Shown piece by piece: positions 2,591 through 40,711 of a stretch of DNA of 40,711 nt (positions are counted from its first letter, which is position 1; every line of letters begins with the position of its first letter). Where the stretch lies: the IMG/VR virus record IMGVR_UViG_3300005613_000152, positions 1 to 40,711 of that record; one strand, written 5' to 3'. Source of the DNA: a virus. The notes under the pieces are model-generated. The model searched no databases, was not told the origin of the DNA, and saw only the letters and a list, made by a program, of their open reading frames with translations. Made by a program: the position numbers and the translations under genes.

Positions 2591-5500
2591 TTACTCTCCA
2601 GTCAGACGTTTTTGTTTAATAAGCTGTTTGAGATCATCGGGAGCTTGATATTGTGGCGTCTCTCCGCTAGGAAGTTCACCAGCAAGAAATTGCTCCTTAG
2701 CGATACTAATGAGTCTATCAACTTCACCTTTAAGAATTACTTTTCTCATGCTGTTATCTCGGTCCCAATTGGCTCCTTTACCAACTTGAACAGTGAACAT
2801 ACTTGTTTGTTTAAAAGGTGAATCAACACTAGGGTAGCTTTGATAAAGATCACTTTCAATAAGATCTTTAAGGTAACCATGGACACCTTTATAAGTTTTA
2901 CCGTTAGCAATGTGGTAATACTCAAAATCAGAATTAAGAAAATGATTAAAACGATTCAAAATTGAATCATTAATAGTTACACCATCGCTTTGGAACAAAG
3001 TAGTTCTAGGTGGTGAGATCAAGTTATAAACCATTTCTTTTGCTACCACATCATCCTCAAGCTTGTCAGGAAACGCCCAGTAACGTCCCAGTACGGCTTG
3101 TACTGGATACCATTTACCAGCGTGGTTAGCGTTGACGGTTTCACCTGGCTTGCCGTACCACAGAGCCTTACGAGAAGCCTCACGGAACCCAGGATCACCG
3201 CTAATGGTAGAAGCAAAAGCATCAGCCAAAGCACCAACTCCGGTGTATTCTGCGGCCATACCAAAGGTCCCAAGAGACGTGTCTAGCAAATTATTAAATA
3301 GGTTTTCTTGAGTTTCACCAATGGTTTTACCTTGTTCGTAAAAACCTTTAGCTGAGTAACGAGTACCAGGGCTTGCAGGTTTACGAGGATCAAAACCTTG
3401 GGTAACAACCTTTCTAAGGTTGAGATAAGGGTCCCCAACTTTTGCTACAGATTCAGCAAGAATTTTCTGGAACCTAGTGGCATCACCTTGGCTTGCAGAT
3501 TGAAGAGCTTTGTTAATTCGTTCAAAACCAGCAAGAGCAGGAACTTCAAGAATAGTGCTAGCAAGAGAAGCAACACCAAGAGCAATCAAACTTGACGTGT
3601 CTTTACCAGGAGCAAATTCTTGTAGATCTCGGATATTTGCTTGTAACGCAAGAGTATTACCCAAAAGAGGCAAGTAACGATACGGAATCATCAAATTGCC
3701 AACTTTAATCGTGTAAGAATCCCTTACTCCTGTTGTTTCTCGGTAGGTATTTTCAAGTCCACCAACAATATCTTGGTTACCGTCTCGTACAAGGAACCAA
3801 GCCATAGCGTTAATACCAACAGACAACGCCAAAGCTCCTTGAGCACGATTACGCACTGCTGGATCGTTACTGAAATATTTACTTTCAAAATCAATAATGT
3901 TTTTACGCCAATCAGAAGGAAGACGATCTAACACCTGTTCAGGAAGTGCTTTTACTCCAAGACGAGCAACATCAATAGCAGCTTGAGCCATTTCACCGCC
4001 GTAAGAAATCATCACAGCACGTTTAATACCGTTAATAGGCGAAACAAGGAACGGGAACACATCCCGACCAAACAAAGCAAGAGCTTGATTTTCACTTTTT
4101 CTAAGTTTGTTTACAGCTTCTTCTACGTTTTTAAAAGGTCCAGTAAGCTCTTCAGTTAGGTTTACTGCTCGTGTAGTTTGAAGAATTTGATTATCAAGAA
4201 CAGAATAACCAACAGTTTTTTGATCAAAACCAACCTTAATAGGTTGATACATTTCTGAAACTTCTTTATTTAATCGTTTTGTAATTTCTTCTCCACGTTG
4301 CTCAGCTTTAATAATGCCTTGAGAAATCATTTCATCAACTTCAATGTTGACTCTTGCTCTAGCACTTGCGTTAGCAAAAAGAGCAGTAGATAGCTCATCA
4401 GCAGTAGCAGAAAGTTGACCAAAAATAGTAAGGTTTACATTTTCACCACTTGGGTAATAACTTTTTTTACCAACACCAACCTTTCTAAGAGCAGTAGTAG
4501 TTCCACCAAGAATGTATTTACCAATAGGACCACGTTTATCCCAAGCTTCACCAGGCATGAAGTAATCGTGGAATACTTTTGTAAACACACGAGTTTTATT
4601 AATTACATCAAATAGTTGTTCGTTATCTTCGCTACGCTCCATGACGTAGTTCATAAATGGAATTTTGACTTGTTTTGCTGCAAGGTCTTGAGAGATTGCT
4701 TCTTCACGCCTCAAGCCTCCACTACGACGCAACTCATAAGCATTAGAAGCAGCTTGAGCTGGGTCTGTAATTGCTTTGCCATAGACAAAACGGTTATAGG
4801 TAGCATCAAGAGCTTCGCCAATTGCAAAACGAAGTTGCAATAAAGTTTCTTGTGACAAACGAGCTTGATCAAGAGTTTCTTTAGCGAATTCAGATTTACC
4901 TAACCATTTAGCCATACGACCAGTAATTTGACCGCTTACAGCTTGACCAGTGATTTCAAGGGCTGTTTCAGGAATACCTTGAATAGGAATAGAAGCAACA
5001 GTTGCTGGGTTACTAAGAGGAGAACCAATCTGCAAATTTGCAAGAACTGAATCAGAAGTAACTGTCAAAGCGTTCAATTTATCCAAATCTCCGTTAGCTT
5101 CATAAACTTTTTCAATCAAAGCCTCCATGCCAGTAAGTTCTTCTTCAGTTAGATCTTCACCTTTTTTAACTTTTTCAAAGAACTGACCAATACGTTGATC
5201 AAACTCAACACGAGAATTTTGTGCTTCTTTACTTAGAGAAGATGTAAATTCATCAACATTTCCCATTGAAGCTAGTTGTTTGTTCAGTTCATCAAATAGA
5301 ACTTTTGGATCACGTACATCAAACCTCACTCGAGCTGTTTTTGAAAATTGCCTCAAAGCGTTACCAACGCCATAAAACAACTCATTAAGAGCAGAAGCAT
5401 TAAGAGTAAACAGTTTGAACTGAGTAGCAAATTCTTCAAGAGCAGTAGCACGATCAAGACCTTCTACTTCTTCACCACGAAGGATCTTTCTAAAATCACG

Positions 5501-8256: not shown

Positions 8257-10998
8257 CTATCTAGTGCCTTTAAACAGCGGCAAGTAAGCACGACGGACAA
8301 AAGTGTTTTGAACTTCTTGAGAGTATTGATGTTGATGAAAAGCACCTGCAGGACGGTAAAGCTGAATGTGAACATGACCGTTATCACCAGCTCCAGTGCC
8401 TGAATATCCTGGACGACTGTCAGAAGGTCCTACACCGTCTCCAGATTTACCAATCGGCATACCACGCTGAATCCGTTGTCCAGGTTTGTAATACAACGAA
8501 GCTAGGTGTGCAATACGAACAAGATCTCCCTTTTTATACCCAGGACCATTTGAATCAGCTCGGATAACCATCGCCAAACCAAAACCACCTTCACGTCCAG
8601 CAGAAACAATTTGACCACTAAACGGAGCAGGCACTGGGTTAGAAATTTGACCACCTTGACGTTCAATAACAAAATCAACAGCTCTGTTGGAAGAGTGTCC
8701 GTGATGCCAATTTGTAATAACAATGCTTGTATCTTGTGGTTTTACACCACCTCCACCGTTAGCTGGTCTAGTGCTGGCTTGTATCTTTTTAGCGTTTTCG
8801 TTAAAAACAGGAGGAACATTACCGTTGAAGAACCTATTAGCTTGCAGTTTTACAAGTTCTTCTGTGGTAATTTTTCCGTTAAAAGCACGTTGCAAATTAG
8901 CAAGACTTCTACGAGTACTTTGACTAAGTTTTGAGGTATCACCAGTTTGCAAAACAGAGTTAATTTCACCAATTTCAGTTTGATTTAAAACGTAATTACT
9001 ACGAAGATAATCACGCATTTTTGTTGTGTTTTGTCCAAAATAAGTGGAAGCAACAGAAGCAAAAGCTCTGCGGTTATCAGTGTCGTTAATTTTGATATCC
9101 CAAGGTTTAGAAACACCACCACCTTGAGCAGAGTTATCAAAACCTAACGGTGGGCCTGCAGACTGAGCACCTGTAGTGGTGTTGTAATAAGAATCAATGT
9201 TGTTATATTCATTCCTGTCATAAAAAGCAGCTTGAGCCCGATTTAGTATTTCAAACTGAACATTTGGATCAGCAATATTTTGTCCGTTATTTTTAGCCTT
9301 TTGAAGTTCTTGCATAATAAACGCATCTGCTTCTGCTCTAAGGCGTGGAGAAGCTTGAAGCACTGCGTTATTAAGGCTATCTCTAGCAATTTTAGGGATC
9401 TCACCTTTTAGTTTTACGTTGTTTTGATACTCAGGGTCTTTTGCAAAATTAGCTTTAAGACCTTTAACAAGTTCAGTAACAATGCTTTTCTTAGCAGATT
9501 GAAAATCAACATCACCAGCGTTGCGGCTAGCTTTTGCAAATTCAGTGATAGCAAAACCAAGAACGTTAGTTCCTTCAAGACGTTGCTGTAGTTCTGGAGG
9601 TAGTTCAGTTTCACCTTTATTAATACGTTCCAAAACTTCTGCTTTAAGCAAAGCCTCATCACCAGGACTAAGCTCTTTGTATTGATACGGATAGATTTTG
9701 TCTACACGATCATTAGCTTCAGAAAGAGAAACACCCTCAGGAAGAAGACCAGATCGTGCTGCTTCAAGGTTTACAGATTTAGCAAGGGCTCGTTGCTCTG
9801 TAATTTGAGCTTCGGTAGGAGTTGGGTTATTGGCGTAAAAATTAACAGAATCAGTAGTAAGAGTACGCTCCCATTCACGTTTGGCCCTAGTAATATTTCG
9901 TTCAATAGACGCAGCAAAAATTTCGCTACGTTTTACGGCTTGAACAGCACCAGCCTCAATAATTGATTGTAATGTTTCACCTTTTTCATTACGGAGAGTT
10001 AATACAGGCAAACCATCTTTAGTGGTGATGTTTTTAAAGGAATTTACAATGTTTGTAAACCCATAAGTTTCGCCAATATCGTTATAAGTATCGCCGTCAT
10101 TATCAATAAATAACCGCCCCATTTCACTAAACAAAACGTTGTGAAACTCTTTTTCTGAGTAACCACGCATGTTTACAAAATAGTTATAAGCATCGTTATA
10201 ACCACTCTGCAGTTGTTGCTGCCCAAGGATCATCCCCTCTTTTGATCCAATGGAACCTTTAATTAATTGAGCACCAAGGTTTACACCACCATAAAATTTA
10301 TCAATTGTTGTTTGACGATCAGTTAGTACTTTGCGTTGATACGTTTTTTGAATGATCTCATTTTTAAGATCAACAAGAACGTTACTAACAAGAGGATCAA
10401 CTTTTGCAGATCTAAAAGCACTAGGAACATCTGCATAAGGTTTCATCAACTCCTGAGTCTTAACCGCCAAAGCTGCAGCACGCTCTGGTTCAGGAAGTTC
10501 TGCAAGTTTATCTGAGTTTTGTTTGCCCCAATTAGCAAGCTCTACAGCTACAGATTTACCAGCATTTGTAGCTTTAGTGTCGTAGTAAAAGTAATTAACC
10601 CAAGGGTTTCTAAGGATGTTTTGTCGTGCTAGTTCAGGTTGATTGCTTTCTCTGAGAACTCTTGTATCTTTTGCGTTATCAAGTGAATCTTGATATGCCC
10701 GCGTTTCAGAAGAAAGTAAATTTATGGCTTCTTGTTTCTTTTGCTCTTTATAGTTTTCAAAAACAATTTTTTGAGTTTGATCAAAAACACCACCATCGCT
10801 AAGGAACTTCTCAATACTTCTAAGACGCTGTTCAGTGGCTGTATCAGGCTGAAACTGTCTACCGTATAGAAGTTGCCCACCAACCCTTTGAGGAGCCTGT
10901 GCTGGAGCTGCAGGAGCAGGAAGAGCTACGGGTTGCTCTGGCGTCGCTACAAGATCCCGTACTTGACGTTGAGGGGTAATTCCAAAGCTACTGGTCAT
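8257..10998 (-). CDS. Internal virion protein, gp15-like, with C-terminal M23/LytM peptidase domain
   Basis: This 913-residue protein holds the gp15 slot of the ejection complex. Residues 1-740 are helical and Gln/Asn/Ala rich with no recognised domain. Roughly 758-890 looks like a lysostaphin-type (M23) zinc endopeptidase: GHSSNRAVDF gives His768 and Asp775, RIAHLAS gives His831, and NGHVHIQLY gives His875 and His877, with the GxxGxSGDGVGPS-type loop between. The role would be local peptidoglycan cutting during DNA injection. I chose ATG at 10998, which follows the previous stop in the string TGATCATG; an in-frame TTG lies 6 nt earlier. The domain call is from motifs only. Confidence 0.83.
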   Translation of the reverse strand: MTSSFGITPQRQVRDLVATPEQPVALPAPAAPAQAPQRVGGQLLYGRQFQPDTATEQRLRSIEKFLSDGGVFDQTQKIVFENYKEQKKQEAINLLSSETRAYQDSLDNAKDTRVLRESNQPELARQNILRNPWVNYFYYDTKATNAGKSVAVELANWGKQNSDKLAELPEPERAAALAVKTQELMKPYADVPSAFRSAKVDPLVSNVLVDLKNEIIQKTYQRKVLTDRQTTIDKFYGGVNLGAQLIKGSIGSKEGMILGQQQLQSGYNDAYNYFVNMRGYSEKEFHNVLFSEMGRLFIDNDGDTYNDIGETYGFTNIVNSFKNITTKDGLPVLTLRNEKGETLQSIIEAGAVQAVKRSEIFAASIERNITRAKREWERTLTTDSVNFYANNPTPTEAQITEQRALAKSVNLEAARSGLLPEGVSLSEANDRVDKIYPYQYKELSPGDEALLKAEVLERINKGETELPPELQQRLEGTNVLGFAITEFAKASRNAGDVDFQSAKKSIVTELVKGLKANFAKDPEYQNNVKLKGEIPKIARDSLNNAVLQASPRLRAEADAFIMQELQKAKNNGQNIADPNVQFEILNRAQAAFYDRNEYNNIDSYYNTTTGAQSAGPPLGFDNSAQGGGVSKPWDIKINDTDNRRAFASVASTYFGQNTTKMRDYLRSNYVLNQTEIGEINSVLQTGDTSKLSQSTRRSLANLQRAFNGKITTEELVKLQANRFFNGNVPPVFNENAKKIQASTRPANGGGGVKPQDTSIVITNWHHGHSSNRAVDFVIERQGGQISNPVPAPFSGQIVSAGREGGFGLAMVIRADSNGPGYKKGDLVRIAHLASLYYKPGQRIQRGMPIGKSGDGVGPSDSRPGYSGTGAGDNGHVHIQLYRPAGAFHQHQYSQEVQNTFVRRAYLPLFKGTR

Positions 10999-24950: not shown

Positions 24951-25347
24951 TAGTACCTCCGTGTTGGTGTGCATTAAGCATATTCTTTCGTTCTAAGTAG
25001 TCCAGAGCTTTTAGGACACCTTCTGTATTGTCACCAAGCTTTCCCAAAGCAACGTTGCAATCGCTACAAAGCCAGCCTCTGAACTGCTGTGTTTTATGGC
25101 AATGATCCAAAACTAATTTTTTAACCTTTCCGCAACATTCGCATGTACTGTCTTTTGGTGGAGGGTTTTGTTTTCGTAATTTCTTCCGATTTTTACTGTT
25201 TAAATTGTTACAAATTTTGCAATGAGGATAAAACCCATCTGCCTTTTGCTTGTCTCTACTAAAAGCAGTTGAGGGTTTTTCTTGCTCACAAATAGTACAA
25301 GTTTTAGTGGCACTCTGCCCAATTATTTCCGATTTTGTATTCAGCAT
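24931..25347 (-). CDS. Recombination endonuclease VII (HNH/His-Me finger)
   Basis: From ATG at 25347 the protein has 138 residues. The C-terminal half has the endonuclease VII pattern: CECC zinc ligands, LVLDHCHKTQQFRGWLC with catalytic DH.H, then CSDCN. An N-terminal zinc-ribbon-like pair (CTIC and CKIC) precedes it. The T4 enzyme (gp49) resolves Holliday junctions and branched DNA before packaging. The window also encodes a T7-type endonuclease I, so two junction nucleases coexist. The start overlaps the polymerase end by 44 nt and no good Shine-Dalgarno is visible. Confidence 0.85.
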   Translation of the reverse strand: MLNTKSEIIGQSATKTCTICEQEKPSTAFSRDKQKADGFYPHCKICNNLNSKNRKKLRKQNPPPKDSTCECCGKVKKLVLDHCHKTQQFRGWLCSDCNVALGKLGDNTEGVLKALDYLERKNMLNAHQHGGTNDLAAA

Positions 25348-27064
25348 CGACTTTAATTCGTAATCCAAGAGATTCTCCTGCCAAGGCAGCAGCTTCAACT
25401 GCGAGACTTCCAAGTCGTTCTGCATGGTCTTCAACAACTGAAAATTGAATTTCGTCATGAACGTGAGCAAGAAAATTCCAATCTTTGTCGTAAATCAAAC
25501 CAAATTGTTCAATCAACTCAAAACATTTGATATACCAAACTTTTGATATCAACGCTCCTGCTGATTGCAACAAAAAATTAAGAGAACTATGTGACGATCT
25601 AATCTGTATTTTTCTGCCATCTAAAGCTTTAACAAAACCTTCGCGTTCTGCTTTCTCGTTTACTCGTTTTGTTAACTCACCGAGAGCAGGCATGTTTTTA
25701 AAGTATCGCTGCTTTAACTTGGCTCCATTTTGATTTGTGATAGTACCTAGTTTTTCGGCACCAGCTCCATACATCAAAGCGTAGAAAAATGTCTTTGCTT
25801 GATCTCTAGTTTCAAGACCAGCAGCTTTTTGATTTGCTGTATGAATGTCACCATTCAAAACTTCATCAGCAAATTTACCGTCGTCAAACGGCCAAAGGTA
25901 ATGAGCTAAACATCTTGCCTCAATACCGCTGAGGTCCACGCCAACCTGTTTGCGTTTCTTCCGTAACCGACCCCTCGGTTGATCATCAGGTACAAACAAA
26001 GCTCGGCACTCCGGTCCCAGGACTGACCTGACAGCAGGAACCTGGGCCATGTTGGGGCTGACGTGGCTACAGCGAGCGGTGGCACAACCAACCGTGATCA
26101 CACTGCCGTGAATACGATTGTCACGCTCAACTAGCTTCAACCAAGCATTGTTACCAGTGCTCAGTTGTCCTAGTCGTTTTTGAAGCGTGAGGTATGAAAC
26201 AAAATCCTCAGCTCCAGGAATCTTCTCCAGAATTTTTTCATCAACCTTGGGTTTACCAGTGTCAGTGAAATCCTTTGGCTGCCAATCCAAATAATTCTGA
26301 AGCACCCAAGCAATGTGATCTCGTGAGTTCGGATTTAGTTCCGAAAGACGAGACATAGCTGCGTTAGCTACGTACCCCCGTTTCACATTATCTTTCTTGG
26401 GAGTGAAGATACCTCCGTCAACAAACGGGAACCGTTGTCGCAAGCGTTCGTTGAGAGTATTTAGTTGTTCGTTAATCAAGGCTTCCAATTTGAGTGCCCC
26501 TTGAACATCAAACGGAAACCCTGATTGTTCTTGTTTTGAAATGAGACTTGCAAATCCCATCTCAAGATCTACGGCACAAGGGATGCTTTCGATTTTCGGT
26601 TGCAACCGATGCCATAGCTTAACGTTTAATTCAACATCACAGACGCAACGCTCAACCAGTTCATCAGATAGCACACTGAAGTCAGACAAATCAGCGTGTC
26701 GTTTGGTATGACCTAAACGAAACCCATACGCTTCAAGGCTGTGACGACCATAAAGCTGTATCGGCATACCAACCCACTTCTTTTTAAAATCCAAATCCAA
26801 AACATTTGGATACAACATTCGACACAAAATTAAAGTGTCAATTAATTTTCCTTTTGGTTTGAATTTTGGATAAACCTTTTGAATAGCTGGTATGTCGTAC
26901 TGAATAATGTTGTGACCAATTAAAACATCAGCAGATTCAAGCATAGAAATCCAATGCTTAGGATCTCTATAAAGCACAGTCTCTTTGTTGTTTGAAATAG
27001 CACAGCAATGAATTTTAGTAATGTCTCTGATTTTTAAAGCATCAGTTTCAACATCAAATGTCAT
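25304..27064 (-). CDS. DNA polymerase, family A with 3'-5' exonuclease (T7 gp5-like)
   Basis: From ATG at 27064 (MTFDVETDAL) the 586 residues carry all motifs. Exo I D4/E6, Exo II N52/D57 in GHNIIQYD and Exo III D143 mark the proofreading domain. Motif A is VGVDLSGIEAR (D377), motif B RDQAKTFFYALMYG (R420, K424, Y428, Y432) and motif C HVHDEIQ (D537). The residue matching E. coli 762 and T7 Tyr526 is Tyr428. The upstream in-frame extension to 27202 overlaps another gene, and ATG 27064 overlaps its stop, so the shorter start is preferred. Confidence 0.96.
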   Translation of the reverse strand: MTFDVETDALKIRDITKIHCCAISNNKETVLYRDPKHWISMLESADVLIGHNIIQYDIPAIQKVYPKFKPKGKLIDTLILCRMLYPNVLDLDFKKKWVGMPIQLYGRHSLEAYGFRLGHTKRHADLSDFSVLSDELVERCVCDVELNVKLWHRLQPKIESIPCAVDLEMGFASLISKQEQSGFPFDVQGALKLEALINEQLNTLNERLRQRFPFVDGGIFTPKKDNVKRGYVANAAMSRLSELNPNSRDHIAWVLQNYLDWQPKDFTDTGKPKVDEKILEKIPGAEDFVSYLTLQKRLGQLSTGNNAWLKLVERDNRIHGSVITVGCATARCSHVSPNMAQVPAVRSVLGPECRALFVPDDQPRGRLRKKRKQVGVDLSGIEARCLAHYLWPFDDGKFADEVLNGDIHTANQKAAGLETRDQAKTFFYALMYGAGAEKLGTITNQNGAKLKQRYFKNMPALGELTKRVNEKAEREGFVKALDGRKIQIRSSHSSLNFLLQSAGALISKVWYIKCFELIEQFGLIYDKDWNFLAHVHDEIQFSVVEDHAERLGSLAVEAAALAGESLGLRIKVDAEYKIGNNWAECH

Positions 27065-27218
27065 CACTGAGGTGGTAGCTGATTCCTGATTCTTCGCAAT
27101 AATCGAGGAACTCATCAAGTTGTTCGTTCTTGATGGTGTAACAGAAGTCATTGGACTTGAAGAAAGGTTTGCAAGATAACTTGCCACGTTCAGAAGCAGC
27201 AAGAATAGAAAGCTTCAA
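27054..27218 (-). CDS. Small protein with TTG start between primase and polymerase
   Basis: The 54-residue product (KLSILAASERGKLSCKPFF, then an acidic C-terminal half ending GISYHLSDDI) follows the primase stop by 25 nt. No ATG exists at a sensible place. A TTG at 27218 has AGGAGG 9 nt upstream, a strong site, while an ATG at 27269 lies inside the primase gene without such a site. Its stop overlaps the polymerase ATG, suggesting coupling. Function unknown. Confidence 0.65.
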   Translation of the reverse strand: MKLSILAASERGKLSCKPFFKSNDFCYTIKNEQLDEFLDYCEESGISYHLSDDI

Positions 27219-34430: not shown

Positions 34431-36188
34431 CTACATACTCGACAACCAGTTAGAGCCCCCTGTAGAGGCTCCTAGGGCCTTCTGAAGGTCTTCTAAGCTC
34501 TGAGCGTATCCAATAGCGTCAATAGAGAGTCCGTTATCACCCTGAATAAACTTACGTTCCAACTCCCACTGTTCAGCAAATCTTGAATCCATAGCTTTCT
34601 TTTCGGTAAGGGCCATGGATTCAGTAAAGTACTGAACTGCCATAGCTAAAGCATCTAAACGGTCATCATGCTTGATGGAATTTTTGTCTTTGGTTATGCG
34701 GGTAAGTTGCCAAAAGAGCTGGTATTGAGATCTAGTTTCGCTTGGATAAATTTCAGTAGATTTAAAATCCTCAGTGATTACGTCAGTATCAACCATCAAC
34801 CTGTGTTGATTAAGAACAGGTTCAAGCGTGTCAATAATTCTCAACTCTTTTTGTTTTGTGTGTCGGACCTCTTCGACAGAGCAGGGGTAAATTACACCGA
34901 GGTAACGCTTAAGGAGTTCCGAGAACATACCCAAGCCGAGATTACTTTCAACAAGTATTTGTTTGACCTTGTACTCTTTTGCGATGAGGGTAAGTTTTTT
35001 AAGGTTACTTTCGCTGTAACCACCTCTCAAACCACCAGAAGCAAGAAGAAAGAGGTTTCCGTTCAAATAAGCGACTACTGCGTACCCGAGTTCATCAGAA
35101 CCCCGTCCAGAAGGGTCTATGGACAGTACAACTCCGGTGTATTCAAGAAACTCAGAACCGATTTGGGCAGGCTTGTAAAACAAGTCTCCGTGAAGACCGA
35201 CAGATGGTAGATCTAGAGCTTTATCACCGTTAGCAAGCCACACAACTTTATCTGGACCTCGTTCACGGTTAAGACGAAACACACAAAGGTCACGAAGTTT
35301 TAATGGATAACGTTCTTCATCACTAAGGCTGATATCCAGCAAAAACTGAAGGTTAAACGTTGATCTACCAATAGAAAGCTGTCTAGCTTCCAGTTCTTCC
35401 CAACCAAAACGACGAGGATCAACTGGGTGTCCAGCAAGAGTTTTATCGTTTTCTAGATCTGACAGTAGTTTTGGAGCAAGCCGACTTCCGTAGTAATTGG
35501 TAAGTTTCTTTTGAGACGGATAAAGAGCAGGCCAAATACGACAGGAATAACCAGCTAGTTCAAGTTTTGCGTAAATAGAGTCTTGAGTATGTGGAGTACC
35601 AAGAAACACAATTTCTCCACCAGGTTTAATAACGGAATCAAATTCTTTAATTGATTCACGTAATTTGTCTCTAATAAGTTGAGTTTCACAGGACTGAGGG
35701 GTTTCTACATCATCAGCAACGATGAGGTCTGCACGAGAGCCCGTGATTTGCCCGAAAATGCCGCTAGAACGCACGGAAGGGCTTTGATCGGGTTTAGCCC
35801 CATAAACGTCAAAAGCGACCTTAGAGAAGCGCTGAGTGTCGCTAGGGAATAGATCTTTAACCATGAACCAGTTCCGCAGCAAATCGTGACAAAATACAGA
35901 AAACGCATCAGCACGATCTTGAGCTGCAGAGATCACCAAGACCTTACAATCAGGGTCTCTACGAAGCCTCCAAAGGACGTAGCCAGCCGTTAGGAACGAT
36001 TTACCACAACCCCTATAGGCCATGATGATTCGCCGTTCAGGGCCGTTTTGGAGGTAATCAGCAAGTTGATATTGAACAGGTGTAGGGCTAGGTAATCGAA
36101 GGTAATGCCACAGATGCGTAGCAAAAACAGGAAACGAAGCTACAGCCTCTTGAATTAATTTTTCAGTTTGTTTATTGGTTCTTGGCAC
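34431..36188 (-). CDS. Terminase large subunit (T7 gp19-like)
   Basis: The 585 residues equal T7 gp19 (586). The ATPase has Walker A AYRGCGKS (57-64) and Walker B LIVADDVE (155-162). The nuclease half has LSIDPSGRGSDELG with its metal Asp and a late KHDDRLDALAMAV. It pumps DNA into the prohead and cuts concatemers. In T7 it is almost the last gene; here it is followed by the early region, so the map is circularly permuted relative to T7. Confidence 0.97.
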   Translation of the reverse strand: MPRTNKQTEKLIQEAVASFPVFATHLWHYLRLPSPTPVQYQLADYLQNGPERRIIMAYRGCGKSFLTAGYVLWRLRRDPDCKVLVISAAQDRADAFSVFCHDLLRNWFMVKDLFPSDTQRFSKVAFDVYGAKPDQSPSVRSSGIFGQITGSRADLIVADDVETPQSCETQLIRDKLRESIKEFDSVIKPGGEIVFLGTPHTQDSIYAKLELAGYSCRIWPALYPSQKKLTNYYGSRLAPKLLSDLENDKTLAGHPVDPRRFGWEELEARQLSIGRSTFNLQFLLDISLSDEERYPLKLRDLCVFRLNRERGPDKVVWLANGDKALDLPSVGLHGDLFYKPAQIGSEFLEYTGVVLSIDPSGRGSDELGYAVVAYLNGNLFLLASGGLRGGYSESNLKKLTLIAKEYKVKQILVESNLGLGMFSELLKRYLGVIYPCSVEEVRHTKQKELRIIDTLEPVLNQHRLMVDTDVITEDFKSTEIYPSETRSQYQLFWQLTRITKDKNSIKHDDRLDALAMAVQYFTESMALTEKKAMDSRFAEQWELERKFIQGDNGLSIDAIGYAQSLEDLQKALGASTGGSNWLSSM

Positions 36189-36372
36189 TGCTAGCCCATT
36201 TAAATACTTGACTTAAGTTATTCTGCAACACGAAATTCATTTTTATGAATTGATACGTGAGATCTTCTAATTTTTCACGAGGAGCATTAGGAAGTTCTCG
36301 TTTCATGCGTTCTAAGCGCAGTTGTTGCTCAATTGAGAGTTCCAAATTGGGCATAGGAGGGAGTTCATCCAT
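36172..36372 (-). CDS. Small helical protein, possible NblA-like adaptor
   Basis: The 66 residues have MDELPPMPNLELSIEQQLRL then a second helix ending QVFKWASSA. NblA (about 60 residues, two helices) typically reads LSLEQQF near the start and ends ..LLKHKW; it targets phycobilisomes to Clp protease and is known from several cyanophages. The ELSIEQQ match, length and K-W end are suggestive, not decisive. It overlaps the terminase start by 17 nt, so an unrelated packaging accessory is the main alternative. Confidence 0.5.
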   Translation of the reverse strand: MDELPPMPNLELSIEQQLRLERMKRELPNAPREKLEDLTYQFIKMNFVLQNNLSQVFKWASSAKNQ

Positions 36373-36704
36373 TGATCAATCATCCATTCGCGTTTAGCAG
36401 AATAATGCTCTTGATCTCGATACCACAACCTCCAATTTTCACTTCCTTTATCTTGGTTACAACTAATACAAGCTGGAACAATATTTGTAGCTAAATCTTG
36501 TCCTCCTTTAGTTTTGGGGTGAATGTGATCAAGAGTTAAAGCGTTACTTTTTACACCGCAATAAGCACATTTACATCCAAAAGCGTTTTTGATTCCTTGT
36601 TTCCAAGCTCTGACTGCATCACGTCGTTGAAGGGATTGAAGATTCGCCATAGCTGCATCAGGCGTCAAATAGACAAAATCCCCAGCAGGCGATTGGATCA
36701 CCAT
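36312..36704 (-). CDS. HNH endonuclease
   Basis: The 130 residues have the full HNH motif: CAYCG, LTLDHIHPKTKGGQD, then NIVPACISCNQDKGS, with two CxxC zinc pairs. Located between small and large terminase genes, it fits the HNH proteins that work with terminases in cos-type packaging, though a homing nuclease is possible. The last 20 residues overlap the next gene by 61 nt. Confidence 0.9.
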   Translation of the reverse strand: MVIQSPAGDFVYLTPDAAMANLQSLQRRDAVRAWKQGIKNAFGCKCAYCGVKSNALTLDHIHPKTKGGQDLATNIVPACISCNQDKGSENWRLWYRDQEHYSAKREWMIDQWMNSLLCPIWNSQLSNNCA

Positions 36705-36743
36705 ACCGGGGACTTTGCTTGGTACATATAGGAATTGGAGTTC

Positions 36744-37016
36744 CTACACACCAATATAAGACCTAACTTTCTTCAAATCGACTTCTGGCAAAGCAGAAAT
36801 CATTTCAGAAATAGCAGAAATATCACCACCATTAAGAGCAGTAATACCTTGATCTTTAAGGAACTTAATTGCGTTAGCAAGATCAGATGCTTTTACATCG
36901 TCACGATTAAGTTGATCAATAAGTTTAGTTGCTACCAAACGGTGAAGACTAAAAAGATCGTCTTCAGAAGCAAGACCTTCAGTTTTATTTAGAGACTTTT
37001 TTGGAGAAGCTGCCAT
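36744..37016 (-). CDS. Terminase small subunit (T7 gp18-like)
   Basis: The 90 residues match T7 gp18 (89). The central LHRLVATKLIDQLNRDDVKASDLANAIKFL-type region and the following LKDQGI are typical of this DNA-maturase subunit, which recognises DNA and activates the large subunit. It overlaps the upstream 54-aa TM gene by 32 nt, as gp17.5 and gp18 are adjacent in T7. Confidence 0.88.
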   Translation of the reverse strand: MAASPKKSLNKTEGLASEDDLFSLHRLVATKLIDQLNRDDVKASDLANAIKFLKDQGITALNGGDISAISEMISALPEVDLKKVRSYIGV

Positions 37017-37149
37017 AGAGAACTCGGAACGCTTTCAACATCAATTGTACGAGGCTATTCTCTTTAAGTTTGGAAGCACCGATCAGCTCTGACAGAACAA
37101 AAGCCAGAGACCACAGAGCAGCCTGAACAGTAGGGTCAGAAAAATCCAT
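36985..37149 (-). CDS. 54-aa single-TM protein, candidate holin (gp17.5-like)
   Basis: The frame starts at ATG 37149, 2 nt after the endolysin stop, and ends inside the small-terminase gene. The product MDFSDPTVQAALWSLAFVLS... has one hydrophobic helix at about 9-26 and a basic C-terminus (LYGSFSKKVSK). Position between endolysin and small terminase equals that of T7 holin gp17.5. Holin function is inferred from topology and place. Confidence 0.65.
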   Translation of the reverse strand: MDFSDPTVQAALWSLAFVLSELIGASKLKENSLVQLMLKAFRVLYGSFSKKVSK

Positions 37150-37151
37150 GA

Positions 37152-37859
37152 TTAATTAATACAAGTTTGACTACGTTCCCAATAATAGATCCGATCTTGG
37201 ATACCGTTGAGGCCTCCGTTTAGCCTCCTAGTAGCACTATACACATCTCCAGTTTTACAAATATTTAAATAATCGTTATCAACAAGCCATTTATAAGCAC
37301 AAAGAAACGGATAAATATTAGCTGTATAGTCCGTACCAAGTTTCATAATTTTCTCATCTGGAGTACCACGTTTGGTCATCCAATTTGAAAAATTCTGATG
37401 ATTTGCACGACCTGTCAGTTGAATAGGGCCGCAGCCACGAAATTTAGGACCGTCACCGGGATAAATATTTCCAATATCTTTTCTTCCTTCTAAATAATAT
37501 CCAGGATCAATTTCTTTCATATAAACAAATCCAGCGCTTTCATGCGCCATCTGAGCAATCAACATGCGTCGTGCTGTAAGGTCTTTATTAAATCCAGTAG
37601 CATCTAGCAACGATTGAAGATCATCTAGAAACGCATCATCAAAACTTTTAGCAGAATGCCCCGTAAGCTTAGCGAGCATCTCAGCGGTAACTTGATATTT
37701 AACGTAATTTGGATGTTGTTTAGGTCCGCTACGCCAAAGCTGAGCAAATTTTTCAAGAGTTCCAGGAGGAATTTGATCTTGAAGAAAATCTAGAGCATAG
37801 TCTTGATGTGGCTTTTCGTTGTAATACTTAGCTACATTACGAAGAGAGATGTCGGCCAT
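37152..37859 (-). CDS. Endolysin, GH19 chitinase/lysozyme-like
   Basis: The 235 residues contain IAQMAHESAGF with the probable catalytic Glu, and the family-type FRGCGPIQLTGRANHQNFSNW. GH19-like phage lysins usually read RGRGPIQLTG, so Cys in place of the second Arg is unusual. The C-terminus (TRRLNGGLNGIQDRIYYWE) also matches. It hydrolyses peptidoglycan for lysis. No signal peptide is visible, so a holin is needed, and TM proteins flank it on both sides. AGGA precedes the ATG. Confidence 0.92.
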   Translation of the reverse strand: MADISLRNVAKYYNEKPHQDYALDFLQDQIPPGTLEKFAQLWRSGPKQHPNYVKYQVTAEMLAKLTGHSAKSFDDAFLDDLQSLLDATGFNKDLTARRMLIAQMAHESAGFVYMKEIDPGYYLEGRKDIGNIYPGDGPKFRGCGPIQLTGRANHQNFSNWMTKRGTPDEKIMKLGTDYTANIYPFLCAYKWLVDNDYLNICKTGDVYSATRRLNGGLNGIQDRIYYWERSQTCIN

Positions 37860-38085
37860 TTAAAAGGATCCTGTCTAATTTTTCATCAATCCGTTGAATT
37901 TGTTGTTCCAACCGATCAATCATAGGCATTAACTCGTCCTTTCTAACAAATTCTTTGTTAAGAATTACTTCTAACCGATCAACACGACGATCAACAGATT
38001 CAAATCGTTTGTGGGACCAAGTAAAAACACCACCACCAATACTGGCAGCACCTAAAATTACTGACAAGATGAAAGACGGTTCCAT
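37837..38085 (-). CDS. TM plus coiled-coil protein (holin or spanin candidate)
   Basis: The 82 residues begin MEPSFILSVILGAASIGGGVF, one membrane helix, followed by a heptad-rich coiled coil (RRVDRLEVIL ... RLEQQIQRIDEKLDRIL). That plan fits either a small holin of the XhlA-like type or an Rz-like spanin, which must reach the outer membrane. It overlaps the endolysin start by 23 nt, so it belongs to the lysis cassette. Confidence 0.72.
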   Translation of the reverse strand: MEPSFILSVILGAASIGGGVFTWSHKRFESVDRRVDRLEVILNKEFVRKDELMPMIDRLEQQIQRIDEKLDRILLNGRHLSS

Positions 38086-38087
38086 AA

Positions 38088-38267
38088 TTAAGACTTTCCG
38101 AAACCCTGCTTCATTTTGTAAGCCAAACGAGTTCCTTGAACGTCAATTGATCCTGGACGATAATTATGACCCTTTGGTAGCGGCTTAGTGGTGCCACCAG
38201 TGTCAGGAAGGCTAGGACCAGAACCAGGCTTACCTTTTTTGTAACCTTTAATTTCAAATGAAGGCAT
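38088..38267 (-). CDS. 59-aa Gly/Lys/Pro-rich protein
   Basis: The ORF from ATG 38267 to TAA 38088 encodes MPSFEIKGYKKGKPGSGPSL ... ending KMKQGFGKS. It is basic with little hydrophobic core. It stops 2 nt before the TM/coiled-coil gene and starts 2 nt after the next one, so it fits a continuous small-gene run. Function unknown; small basic virion-associated proteins look like this. Confidence 0.65.
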   Translation of the reverse strand: MPSFEIKGYKKGKPGSGPSLPDTGGTTKPLPKGHNYRPGSIDVQGTRLAYKMKQGFGKS

Positions 38268-38269
38268 AA

Positions 38270-38377
38270 TTATTTACCTTTAGATGGGACACAATTAGGG
38301 ACATTTTTGCCACCTTTCTTTTTCATACCAACCATTTCATAACCCTTCCAACAGGGTCCTTTCTTTTTAGCGGCCAT
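38270..38377 (-). CDS. 35-aa conserved basic phage protein (GPCWKGYEMVGMKKK)
   Basis: The frame MAAKKKGPCWKGYEMVGMKK... ends VPNCVPSKGK. The CWKGYxxVGMKKKGG..VPNCVP pattern recurs in many podoviruses as a tiny basic protein with two Cys near lysis or tail genes. Function unknown. Flanked by 2-4 nt gaps from its neighbours. Confidence 0.75.
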   Translation of the reverse strand: MAAKKKGPCWKGYEMVGMKKKGGKNVPNCVPSKGK

Positions 38378-38381
38378 AAAA

Positions 38382-38504
38382 TTACTTTGTTTTGTATCCT
38401 TTTTTCATTTTGCCACTTTTATTGCTATGTTTGGCAAATTGTTCAGCAACCTTTGGCTTTTTAGCATAAAGGTACTTACGTTGTTTTTCGGATTTAAAAG
38501 GCAC
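38382..38504 (-). CDS. 40-aa conserved basic phage protein with GTG start
   Basis: From GTG 38504 the product is MPFKSEKQRKYLYAKKPKVA... ending MKKGYKTK. The MPFKSEKQRxYLxAxxP motif is common in small phage proteins of unknown role. No ATG is available at the conserved start, so GTG is the start. It diverges from the plus-strand ORF whose ATG is 2 nt away. Confidence 0.75.
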   Translation of the reverse strand: MPFKSEKQRKYLYAKKPKVAEQFAKHSNKSGKMKKGYKTK

Positions 38505-38505
38505 A

Positions 38506-38745
38506 ATGAAACCTGTAAAAGATTTACTTCAACAGCTTATTCAATACTTTATTAATTGGCTAGTAACGTTTTGGCGTGAAGCAAAAACTACAGCAAATTT
38601 AAATGAAGAAATACGTAAATATAAAGAAGCGACTGAAGAGTTAGATCCCCAGCCGCAACCAGAATTTAAAGAAAATGGCGTTTTTGGTCAGGATGGTTGG
38701 TACATCCAATTAACAAACCCTGTAGTTACCAAGGAACACCAGTAG
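38506..38745 (+). CDS. Plus-strand 79-aa protein, amphipathic N-terminus
   Basis: The frame opens MKPVKDLLQQLIQYFINWLV, a helix rich in aromatic and aliphatic residues that could be membrane-associated. A charged middle (LNEEIRKYKEATEELDPQPQPEF) follows, then FGQDGWYIQLTNPVV. The last few codons lie antisense to the broken 101-aa-type gene remnant, so its original C-terminus may have been altered. It is AT-rich like the phage core. Confidence 0.5.
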   Translation: MKPVKDLLQQLIQYFINWLVTFWREAKTTANLNEEIRKYKEATEELDPQPQPEFKENGVFGQDGWYIQLTNPVVTKEHQ

Positions 38746-38797
38746 CTTTAGTTGGTGCTAATTTTTCGTTAATTTGAGCATCAAGTGCTGTACCAAT
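38726..38797 (-). pseudogene. C-terminal remnant of a second copy of the 101-aa protein
   Basis: Minus-strand translation gives IGTALDAQINEKLAPTKATGVPW then TAA. This aligns with the last residues of the intact gene at 38892-39197 (IETALQAQLDEKHSPTKAAG..). Similarity stops abruptly upstream of IGTAL. The remnant is AT-rich in codon choice while the intact copy is GC-rich, so they are diverged homologues and not a recent duplicate. Confidence 0.8.
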
Positions 38798-38808
38798 CCT
38801 GATCCTTA

Positions 38809-38874
38809 TTAAAGGTTGTCGGGTTTGCCTTTAATAGCCGCTGTTCTAATTAAAGGATCGGTGCCTGCAGCGGC
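38809..38874 (-). pseudogene. C-terminal fragment of an unidentified gene
   Basis: A frame open only between TAG and TAA reads AAAGTDPLIRTAAIKGKPDN plus one more residue, with no start codon. Its AAIKGKPDNL ending looks like a real phage protein C-terminus. It lies between the intact 101-aa gene and the remnant above, at the GC transition. I read it as the tail of a gene whose front was removed by recombination. Confidence 0.5.
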
Positions 38875-38891
38875 CTACGCTTCAGTTTAAC

Positions 38892-39197
38892 TCAGCTCCA
38901 CGGCACACCAGCAGCTTTGGTTGGCGAGTGCTTCTCGTCGAGCTGCGCTTGGAGTGCGGTTTCGATTTCAGCAACTTTTTCGTCACCAAACTTATCCTTG
39001 ATCCAACTGACCACCATGTCTTCGGTCAGGTCATCAAAGGGGATAAGGCTGTCGGGACGCTCCAGGCCGATGCTGCCATAAGCGCCTGCAGAGTAAGTAC
39101 CGTCCTCTGCATTAACGGTGTAATGGGCATTGTAGACGAACCCATCAGCGGTTTCCCGCTCTAGGTTGGCAATCGCCCAGGTGAATGTGGTGGTCAT
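38892..39197 (-). CDS. Cyanophage-type conserved protein (101 aa), intact copy
   Basis: The product starts MTTTFTWAIANLERETADGF, followed by VYNAHYTVNAEDGTYSAGAYG and a helical C-terminus ending TKAAGVPWS. It resembles small beta-sandwich-like proteins common in cyanophage genomes (I believe DUF7936). Function unknown. It is GC-rich, lies 45 nt downstream of the integrase, and has a broken AT-rich homologue 95 nt further on. Confidence 0.8.
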   Translation of the reverse strand: MTTTFTWAIANLERETADGFVYNAHYTVNAEDGTYSAGAYGSIGLERPDSLIPFDDLTEDMVVSWIKDKFGDEKVAEIETALQAQLDEKHSPTKAAGVPWS

Positions 39198-39242
39198 GAG
39201 AAAAATGAACCTATTGACAGTGTATTAGAAAAACAAGCGGTG

Positions 39243-40097
39243 TCATAGTTCGGGTATCTCGTATTCTTGCGTGCTGTTGCAGTAATGCTTGAAGATCACT
39301 TCGCTAGTGTTCCCGGCCCACGCCGCAACCTGTGGTACTGGTATACCAGCCTCGATCCAGCGACTGATCGCTGTGTGGCGGCAGTCGTAGGGGCGATAAA
39401 CGTGAGACACCAGTTCGGCTTTATGCAAAACTTGCATCTTGCGCCTGAAATAACTTTGGAACGCAAGCCTGTCCCAAGGAAAGATGTAGTCGCCGTCTTT
39501 CGGCAACTGATCGAGAATTGCTTGACATTTTACGTTCAGCGGCACCCATCGTTTCTTGTTGGTTTTTGTGCTGTTTTTCAGGCCATGAGTAAGTGTGTAG
39601 TTTTGATGGACAAGAATCTTGTTCTCCCTGATGTCTTTCCACATCAACGCCCGCACCTCTCCAGTCCGCATTGCGGTCTGAAGCATAAATTCGGTGTACC
39701 AAGACCAGTTGACGGTGCGATAGGTCATTTTCGCTTCAAGGGCGCATAGAACCAGCGCGACCTCGTTGCGTGGAATCACGATAATTTCTTCATCCTTCTG
39801 TGGCGCTTTTGGCATCTTGAAGCTGGCCAGCGGATTGCGCTGCAGGTAAGCCACATCTTCTTGGGCCGCCCACTTGTACATCGTCTTGGTGTACATGGCT
39901 ACGCGCCTTGCTGATAGCACAGGTTTTTCGCCAAGGATCCAAATCATGATCTTCCTGGCTTGCTCGATGTCCTGAACTGGGCAGCGCCGCAGCCATTTCG
40001 TTACTTGTCGGTAGTCAGACGTAAGGCTTGTAGGGCAAAGGGATATGGAGCGCTCTTGGAGAAAGGCGTCCCAGAGTTCGCTAAGCGTTGTAGGCAT
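39243..40097 (-). CDS. int: Tyrosine recombinase / phage integrase
   Basis: From ATG 40097 the protein has 284 residues. An N-terminal SAM-like DNA-binding domain spans about 1-100. The catalytic domain has R144 (TAMRTGEVRAL), a Lys in TNKKRWVPL, R240 and H241 in YDCRHT, and the nucleophile Y272 in FKHY. The usual first His of HxxR is Tyr237 and the LGH His is Asn263 (WAGN), variants seen in phage integrases. The longer frame to 40148 would start inside the promoter, so ATG 40097 is preferred. It is GC-rich compared with the phage core. Confidence 0.93.
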   Translation of the reverse strand: MPTTLSELWDAFLQERSISLCPTSLTSDYRQVTKWLRRCPVQDIEQARKIMIWILGEKPVLSARRVAMYTKTMYKWAAQEDVAYLQRNPLASFKMPKAPQKDEEIIVIPRNEVALVLCALEAKMTYRTVNWSWYTEFMLQTAMRTGEVRALMWKDIRENKILVHQNYTLTHGLKNSTKTNKKRWVPLNVKCQAILDQLPKDGDYIFPWDRLAFQSYFRRKMQVLHKAELVSHVYRPYDCRHTAISRWIEAGIPVPQVAAWAGNTSEVIFKHYCNSTQEYEIPEL

Positions 40098-40119
40098 TAC
40101 AAAAAGTAAAGGAGCCAGC

Positions 40120-40148
40120 ACACTACAACGCCAGCTCTGTGTTGTCAA
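40120..40148 (-). promoter_or_regulatory. Sigma70-like promoter of the integrase
   Basis: On the minus strand TTGACA (40148-40143), 17 nt, then TAGTGT (40125-40120). The -35 is perfect, the -10 matches TATAAT at three positions. Transcription would begin about 40113, giving a 16-nt leader before ATG 40097. Confidence 0.55.
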
Positions 40149-40204
40149 GCACGTATAGTAACGTCAAAGACTACTGAGCATCTCTTCAAAACCGCCCGCG
40201 CCCG

Positions 40205-40390
40205 ATGAAACAAACAATTATCGCCACACTTGTCATCACACTTTCTACAGCCGTTTGGATTGGATTGCTTCACGCATCGAACAACAAGCTGGAACAGCGG
40301 TGCCAAGACCAAGGTGGCTCTGTGATCTCTCGCCCAGGTCAACCTAGTTTCTGTCTAACACCGCCTCTAGCAAAATCTACCGATGTATAA
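40205..40390 (+). CDS. Small membrane/secreted protein
   Basis: The 61 residues begin MKQTIIATLVITLSTAVWIGLL, a signal peptide or membrane anchor. A hydrophilic tail follows with two cysteines (LEQRCQDQGGSV and PSFCLTPP) that could form a disulfide. It diverges from the integrase promoter. It could be a host gene, a superinfection-exclusion factor or a toxin-like peptide; sequence alone does not decide. After it, 65 nt to the next ORF show nothing. Confidence 0.55.
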   Translation: MKQTIIATLVITLSTAVWIGLLHASNNKLEQRCQDQGGSVISRPGQPSFCLTPPLAKSTDV

Positions 40391-40455
40391 GCCACAAGGG
40401 CTATACATGCTTAGATTTGCCTAGACGATCCCCGCCCCACTAGTGACGTGGATTT

Positions 40456-40605
40456 CTAGCTGTCAGCAAGGTGCTTCATGCCTTCGTCGTTGTTGGCGTA
40501 AAGATCGTCCAAAGCTGCAATAGCTCCTGCCTCGCCAACCTCATGCTGATTGCTCAGGTCAAGGCTGGCTTCGCAGTATTCCTTCCAGGCGGTGGTGTCA
40601 GACAT
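40456..40605 (-). CDS. 49-aa acidic protein
   Basis: From ATG 40605 to TAG 40456 the product reads MSDTTAWKEYCEASLDLSNQ ... ending GMKHLADS. It is acidic and likely all-helical. GC-rich codon use matches the integrase segment. It follows the partial gene at the window edge by 23 nt in the same direction. No family recognised. Confidence 0.55.
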   Translation of the reverse strand: MSDTTAWKEYCEASLDLSNQHEVGEAGAIAALDDLYANNDEGMKHLADS

Positions 40606-40628
40606 AGAAGAGCAAGTGACTAAGAAGC

Positions 40629-40711
40629 TCAGCCAATCTTGATGCCGCCATCGGCACTCATAGTGATGCTGGCTCCACCCGTCATCTTGATCGAGCCGCC
40701 TTCTTTCATCT
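40629..40711 (-). CDS. C-terminal end of a gene running off the window
   Basis: The last 26 codons read MKEGGSIKMTGGASITMSAD ... GIKIG and stop. The alternating Gly/Thr/Ser/Ile pattern is typical of beta-helical tips of phage tail-spike or baseplate proteins. The Met at 40709 could be internal or the true start; the frame is open to the edge. Identity cannot be fixed. Confidence 0.5.
   Translation of the reverse strand, partial: MKEGGSIKMTGGASITMSADGGIKIG

Follow-up and report, generated by a model that had tools for sequence, protein, structure and literature searches.

The window analysed here covers an entire virus record (40,711 bases), a metagenomic contig that contains most of the genome of a P-RSP2-like cyanopodovirus. 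This podovirus has probably taken in an integrase/DUF7936 block of the cyanosiphovirus type through a microhomology join inside its own DUF7936 gene. The block would be flanked on one side by the lysis/packaging genes and on the other by the tail-fibre region, which is expected past the right end of the record and should resume at its left end. A recombination join with capture of an integration module from a GC-rich relative had been proposed as one possibility in the initial annotation. Such a join, with a cyanophage lineage of higher GC as the source, is supported by two gene scraps at the join, a step in GC and GC3, and separate relatives on the two sides.

Podovirus Backbone

The left 38.7 kb belong to a T7-type podovirus with genes for terminase, tail tube, portal, capsid, primase/helicase, DNA polymerase, ribonucleotide reductase, and ThyX, of which the tail-tube and capsid genes were named from position and gene order. 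Two genes serve as reference points:

34431..36188, minus strand: T7-type terminase large subunit (Pfam Terminase-T7_RNaseH-like), P-RSP2-like marker of the podovirus backbone
38506..38745, plus strand: podovirus gene of 79 aa, after which no further backbone gene is intact up to the join; 40 P-RSP2-like loci have a homologue at the corresponding position

The closest isolate for the terminase is Prochlorococcus phage P-RSP2 with 85.5% amino acid identity, followed by the next best record with 53%; among metagenomic contigs, identity reaches 93% (L162). P-RSP2 has been placed as an outlier clade of the cyanopodoviruses, beside MPP-A, -B, and -C (PMC9860041). Unlike clade MPP-C of that study, the window contains a DNA polymerase gene (DNA_pol_A match at 25304-27202, E=3e-41). 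After circular permutation, gene set and gene order of the backbone are similar to those of P-RSP2, except that neither the integrase gene (int) nor the DUF7936 gene of the window finds a match there. Due to this permuted P-RSP2-like order, the two ends of the window should lie close to each other in the tail-fibre region.

In case of the window endolysin gene (37152-37859), the first approximately 47 residues are common to relatives and the remainder is swapped for other catalytic domains (glucosaminidase or C39), so that domains are shuffled in the lysis gene among P-RSP2-like phages.

Two Sets of Relatives and a Composition Step

Positions 36001-38713 (approximately 36.0-38.7 kb) align with P-RSP2-like contigs at 73-83% identity, and positions 38892-40711 align with contigs carrying the integrase module, the best of which is L009 with 94%. 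No locus aligning with both sides was found among the strongest matches listed. L009 is a cyanophage contig with int, DUF7936, a gene of 110 aa, a holin-like gene, and a full-length endolysin gene with Pfam Glucosaminidase and Peptidase_C39_2 matches.

The identity to L009 is graded. A single difference occurs in 39601-40711, the last 1.1 kb thus being 99.9% identical, about 20 differences occur in the 3' part of int (39243-39600), and DUF7936 is about 75% identical in DNA and 81% in amino acids. This gradient may have been produced by a second, recent exchange or by an assembly join near 39.6 kb, and the join at 38.8 kb is independent of it.

The GC counts of the initial annotation, made by hand on single lines, proved fully correct, with 19/60 in 38521-38580 and 37/60 in 39301-39360, and the composition break which it had read from them was confirmed, with 51.2% GC in 38892-40711 versus 41.0% in 1-38700. 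None of the 369 windows of equal length to the left of the block reaches 51.2%; the highest value, 48.1%, lies near the major capsid gene. GC3 amounts to 0.61 for DUF7936 and 0.62 for int versus 0.23-0.45 for podovirus genes. Of the two profiles suggested in the initial annotation, GC separates the halves but GC-normalised tetranucleotide usage does not (rank 32 of 62), so that the evidence for a foreign origin comes from GC and the relatives and not from word usage.

The Right-Hand Block: DUF7936 and int

The block contains the following features upstream of the join:

38892..39197, minus strand: DUF7936, GC-rich intact copy of 101 aa (PF25590, phrog_7802)
39243..40097, minus strand: tyrosine integrase of 284 aa, intact frame (PF00589, PHROG integrase)
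40120..40148, minus strand: sigma-70-like promoter before int, TTGACA-N17-TAGTGT, located by pattern
40156..40173, minus strand: linker of class TTTGAC, TAGTCTTTGACGTTACTA, last before int
40441..40458, minus strand: degenerate linker of class CACGTC, TAGAAATCCACGTCACTA, missed by the strict pattern and assigned by eye
40456..40605, minus strand: small phage gene of 49 aa between two linkers, with a homologue of 79% nucleotide identity in KBS-S-2A
40603..40622, minus strand: linker of class ACTTGC, TAGTCACTTGCTCTTCTATG

DUF7936 matches its profile PF25590 with E=1.6e-36 and 125.6 bits (curated cut-off 27). Besides L009, its closest relatives are found in KBS-S-2A (88% amino acid identity) and S-H1 (85%). 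The predicted structure (mean pLDDT 94.8) has a fold of three strands and two helices; it gave no match to the PDB at E<=0.001 and, in a viral library, matched DUF7936 proteins and unnamed viral proteins. The family is not named in any paper of the literature searched. In cultured podoviruses and siphoviruses its gene always lies between the tail-fibre and the lysis genes, which suggests a putative role in either.

For int, the catalytic-domain match to PF00589 (E=4e-14, 53.2 bits, curated cut-off 27.1) covers positions 22-170 of 172, and the motifs MRTGEVR, CRHTAI, AWAGN, and KHY were read by eye near residues 143, 239, 259, and 271. Sequences similar to TTGACA...TAGTGT precede several related int genes. 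The integrase is 99% identical in amino acids to that of L009, 78% to that of S-LBS1, and 68% to those of L066 and L067, and it also occurs in many viral contigs. In L066 and L067 it is located directly before DUF7936, and L067 additionally carries a different T7-type terminase (43%), which places integrases of this kind in more than one podovirus lineage.

In nearly all loci int is situated 18-90 bp upstream of DUF7936, except for four loci at 754-781 bp. In a DUF7936 tree built on few columns, its presence changes 19 times by parsimony, and at least 8 of these changes are forced by supported branches. The near-identical phages L008 (9393-11512) and L009 (57-3305) differ in that only L009 carries int and its neighbouring small genes; over 1.5 kb downstream they share 99.7% identity. 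Upstream, L008 contains siphovirus-type genes including a long central tail protein, and from this gene content it is presumably a siphovirus. Going by these comparisons, int comes and goes just upstream of DUF7936. It was found in none of the 40 P-RSP2-like loci fetched with the 38506 gene, some contigs of which end near that gene.

Among cultured relatives, the freshwater cyanosiphovirus S-LBS1 resembles the window in that DUF7936 directly follows int, but it differs in its GC content of 60% and in a DUF7936 of only 57% identity. It also has a second, partial DUF7936, which is an identical tandem duplication, whereas the second copy of the window is a diverged remnant. This duplication (L161, 7130-7384) is an exact repeat of approximately 127 bp over the DUF7936 3' end beside the integrase gene, either a recent duplication or an assembly artefact. 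KBS-S-2A shares the 49-aa gene upstream of DUF7936 but lacks int between the two, its homology to the window restarting approximately 10 nt past the int stop codon.

Judged from its gene family, int likely offers the option of integration into a host genome, provided that it works. An attP/attB pair or an integrated copy was not found: 38400-40711 contains no tRNA, Rfam family, or repeat signal, and a search of 84,980 species genomes, which reaches close relatives only, matched int at one locus, on a short MAG contig. Lysogeny of picocyanobacteria is a known puzzle in marine as well as freshwater systems, since their phages carry integrase genes and prophages are rare, and for S-LBS1 putative attachment sites and no evidence of integration were reported (PMC6157547). 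A podovirus with an integrase from another phage type would represent one route by which int spreads, without implying established lysogeny.

Structure of the Join

Read along the minus strand, int comes first, followed by the intact DUF7936, which ends at 38892, then by 31 nt, an endolysin piece of 79 nt, and 65 nt of a podovirus-type DUF7936 3' end:

38861..38891, minus strand: 31 nt outside the L009 matches, which stop at L009 position 2105 and restart at 3331
38782..38860, minus strand: 79 nt from within a donor endolysin gene of the glucosaminidase and peptidase C39 type, with a stop codon
38782..38790, minus strand: 9-nt overlap of the two alignments, CAGCACTTG, common to both fragments, presumed crossover point
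38726..38790, minus strand: 65-nt AT-rich DUF7936 remnant, the 3' end of the podovirus's own gene

An AT-rich C-terminal remnant of the 101-aa protein, as described in the initial annotation, is present and reads TALDAQINEKLAPTKATGVPW up to its stop versus TALQAQLDEKHSPTKAAGVPWS up to the stop of the intact copy. It matches L171 at 50 of 65 positions (77%), L262 at 81.5% over 65 nt, and other podovirus loci at 75-77%. Since DUF7936 adjoins the 38506 gene in 16 of the 40 loci fetched with that gene, the scrap is the resident copy. In these relatives, the resident DUF7936 is located roughly 100 nt farther from the 38506 homologue than is the remnant in the window.

The initial annotation had also noticed another gene tail. 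A gene fragment is indeed located there, at 38782-38860, but it had been read on the plus strand by mistake. It is no tail but comes from the interior of an endolysin gene on the minus strand and reads LEQRLLKANPTTFNKDQDWYST, directly preceded by a stop. It is 91% identical over 79 nt to L009 3331-3409 (E=5e-27), and its stop codon lies at a point where L009 reads through. The adjacent 31 nt stand where L009 has approximately 1.2 kb with the 110-aa gene, the holin-like gene, and the start of the endolysin gene.

The simplest account of these observations is a single microhomology-mediated join plus deletions. The incoming DNA would have run from int through DUF7936 into part of the endolysin gene and would have been joined inside the resident DUF7936 at the 9 nt common to this gene and the donor endolysin gene. 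The intact DUF7936 would then be that of the donor, and the resident DUF7936 and the donor endolysin gene would have been left as scraps. The donor lysis genes would have lost approximately 1.2 kb, and the spacer behind the 38506 gene would be gone as well. The sequences themselves show the two origins, both scraps, the 9-nt overlap, and the lack of int in the relatives sampled; the podovirus as the recipient, the microhomology joining, and the order of events are what we infer from this arrangement. Capture via a shared gene, as assumed in the initial annotation, applies insofar as the DUF7936 genes of both parents meet at the join, but a clean homologous exchange within DUF7936 does not, with endolysin and DUF7936 joined at 9 nt and deletions on both sides.

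Two other sources of this arrangement were considered and rejected. A tandem duplication of DUF7936 does not fit a remnant that matches podovirus copies, the duplication in S-LBS1 being an exact tandem repeat. Use of the DUF7936 3' end as an integration site was rejected in view of the lack of flanking repeats and an interval of only about 100 nt between remnant and intact copy.

Alternative Explanations

Ordinary gene-level mosaicism, in which the window is just one more combination in a zone between tail fibre and lysis genes that is hypervariable in many cyanophages, is in agreement with the frequent changes of int beside DUF7936 and with the swapping of small genes between related phages at the linkers of this zone. 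It is a more general wording of the same event, and by itself it leaves the two gene scraps and the crossing between phage types unexplained. As a sufficient account we consider it rather unlikely, although it is compatible with the capture of the block, and our confidence in the one need not come at the expense of the other.

The main rival is an assembly or amplification chimera, in which podovirus and cyanosiphovirus contigs of one metagenome were joined artificially. The record is metagenomic, the near-identical last 1.1 kb belong to a contig of another phage (L009), and a search of other contigs, from which near-identical records may have been left out, gave no second contig or genome with the join at 38.8 kb. 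However, the sequence at the join departs from a perfect overlap between two known genomes: the donor piece is 91% and the recipient piece 77-82% identical to its relatives, and there are 31 extra nt and a deletion. The stop codon in the endolysin scrap likewise speaks against a chimera, as does the 9-nt overlap, since the k-mers used by assemblers are normally longer. Taken together, an artificial join seems improbable.

A prophage edge, with phage DNA on the left and host chromosome on the right, would account for a composition step with an integrase gene at the boundary, but this suggestion of the initial annotation is very hard to maintain, as both sides are of phage type, the right-hand genes are phage genes that recur in numerous viral contigs and isolates, neither a host gene nor a tRNA or an attachment repeat was found, and the species genomes contributed only the one int locus mentioned above.

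Linkers Upstream of int and DUF7936

With capture of the block as the preferred explanation, the join taken by itself illustrates phage mosaicism neatly. Of all findings, a series of ordered linkers most deserves to be followed up and may matter more than the join. The spacers between the small genes upstream of int or DUF7936 contain TAGTC-X6, often followed by ACTA. Linkers were also observed upstream of DUF7936 in L008, L009, L083, L110, L135, and many other loci, and, partly in variant forms, in the isolates S-LBS1 (CCCTTC, then TTTGAC), KBS-S-2A, S-CBP3, and S-RIP1. In 2.58 Mb, the sense strand contains TAGTCACCTTC 65 times and the opposite strand contains it once, and 142 of 149 such linker sites in DUF7936 loci are located within 2 kb upstream of DUF7936.

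The X6 classes follow a fixed order. In a first set of loci, CTACTC precedes ACCTTC in 24:0 cases, ATTCCC and ATTACC precede ACCTTC in 11:0 cases each, and CTACTC precedes ATTCCC in 7:0. For a second set of loci, fetched by the linker pattern alone, the corresponding counts are 30:0 (CTACTC before ACCTTC), 8:0 (ATTCCC before ACCTTC), 24:0 (ATTACC before ACCTTC), and 7:0 (CTACTC before ATTCCC). The two sets overlap, some contigs being present in both under different locus ids, and due to the relatedness of the loci the counts are not independent trials. In the second set, DUF7936 was found downstream in 118 of 194 cases; 25 end within 1.5 kb and 51 are without a match. One locus of this set has TTTGAC ahead of ATTCCC and ACCTTC, and thus the rule is imperfect.

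Homology between phages tends to break at the linkers. Of 93 site pairs that have the right flank in common, 69 lose homology on the left within 5 nt of the linker, and of 145 pairs with a common left flank, 135 lose it on the right within this distance, in an ungapped measure in which some ends may be indels. Full four-gamete squares at linkers were not found. Short conserved boundary sequences as recombination points are an established concept in phage mosaicism (PMC3029335). The linkers are similar in being short conserved sequences at gene junctions where phage homology breaks, and differ in occurring as several classes per genome, in fixed order and almost always with one copy each. As far as we found, such a fixed order of distinct linker classes is not described in the open-access literature.

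A tentative reading, which we put forward with some reserve, is that the stretch from tail fibre to DUF7936 represents an ordered plug-in board in many cyanophages, with exchange at matching linkers. Small genes would occupy linker-bounded slots, each X6 class marking one position, in the order CTACTC, then ATTACC/ATTCCC/CCCTTC, then ACCTTC, and finally ACTTGC/CACGTC/TTTGAC, and distinct classes within a genome would prevent deletion between slots. The integrase gene would be a mobile filler of the last slot before DUF7936, able to cross between siphoviruses and podoviruses as in the window. The linkers may act through short homology or a site-specific recombinase, or they may mark gene borders for another reason. 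If the order holds, the linkers would explain in specific, testable terms how the tail-fibre region, which governs host range, acquires its mosaic structure.

Promoters for a T7-family RNA polymerase are a less likely reading of the linkers. CTACTCACTA resembles the T7 promoter core; several classes per genome in fixed order, and start codons that often follow within a few nt, argue against it. Inverted-repeat core sites of a recombinase were rejected: TAGT-N7-ACTA is enriched upstream of DUF7936, but its commonest class, GTTCTCC, is conserved tail-fibre coding sequence. In L083, a tRNA-like sequence was seen by eye between two linkers around 9880-9950, just upstream of int.
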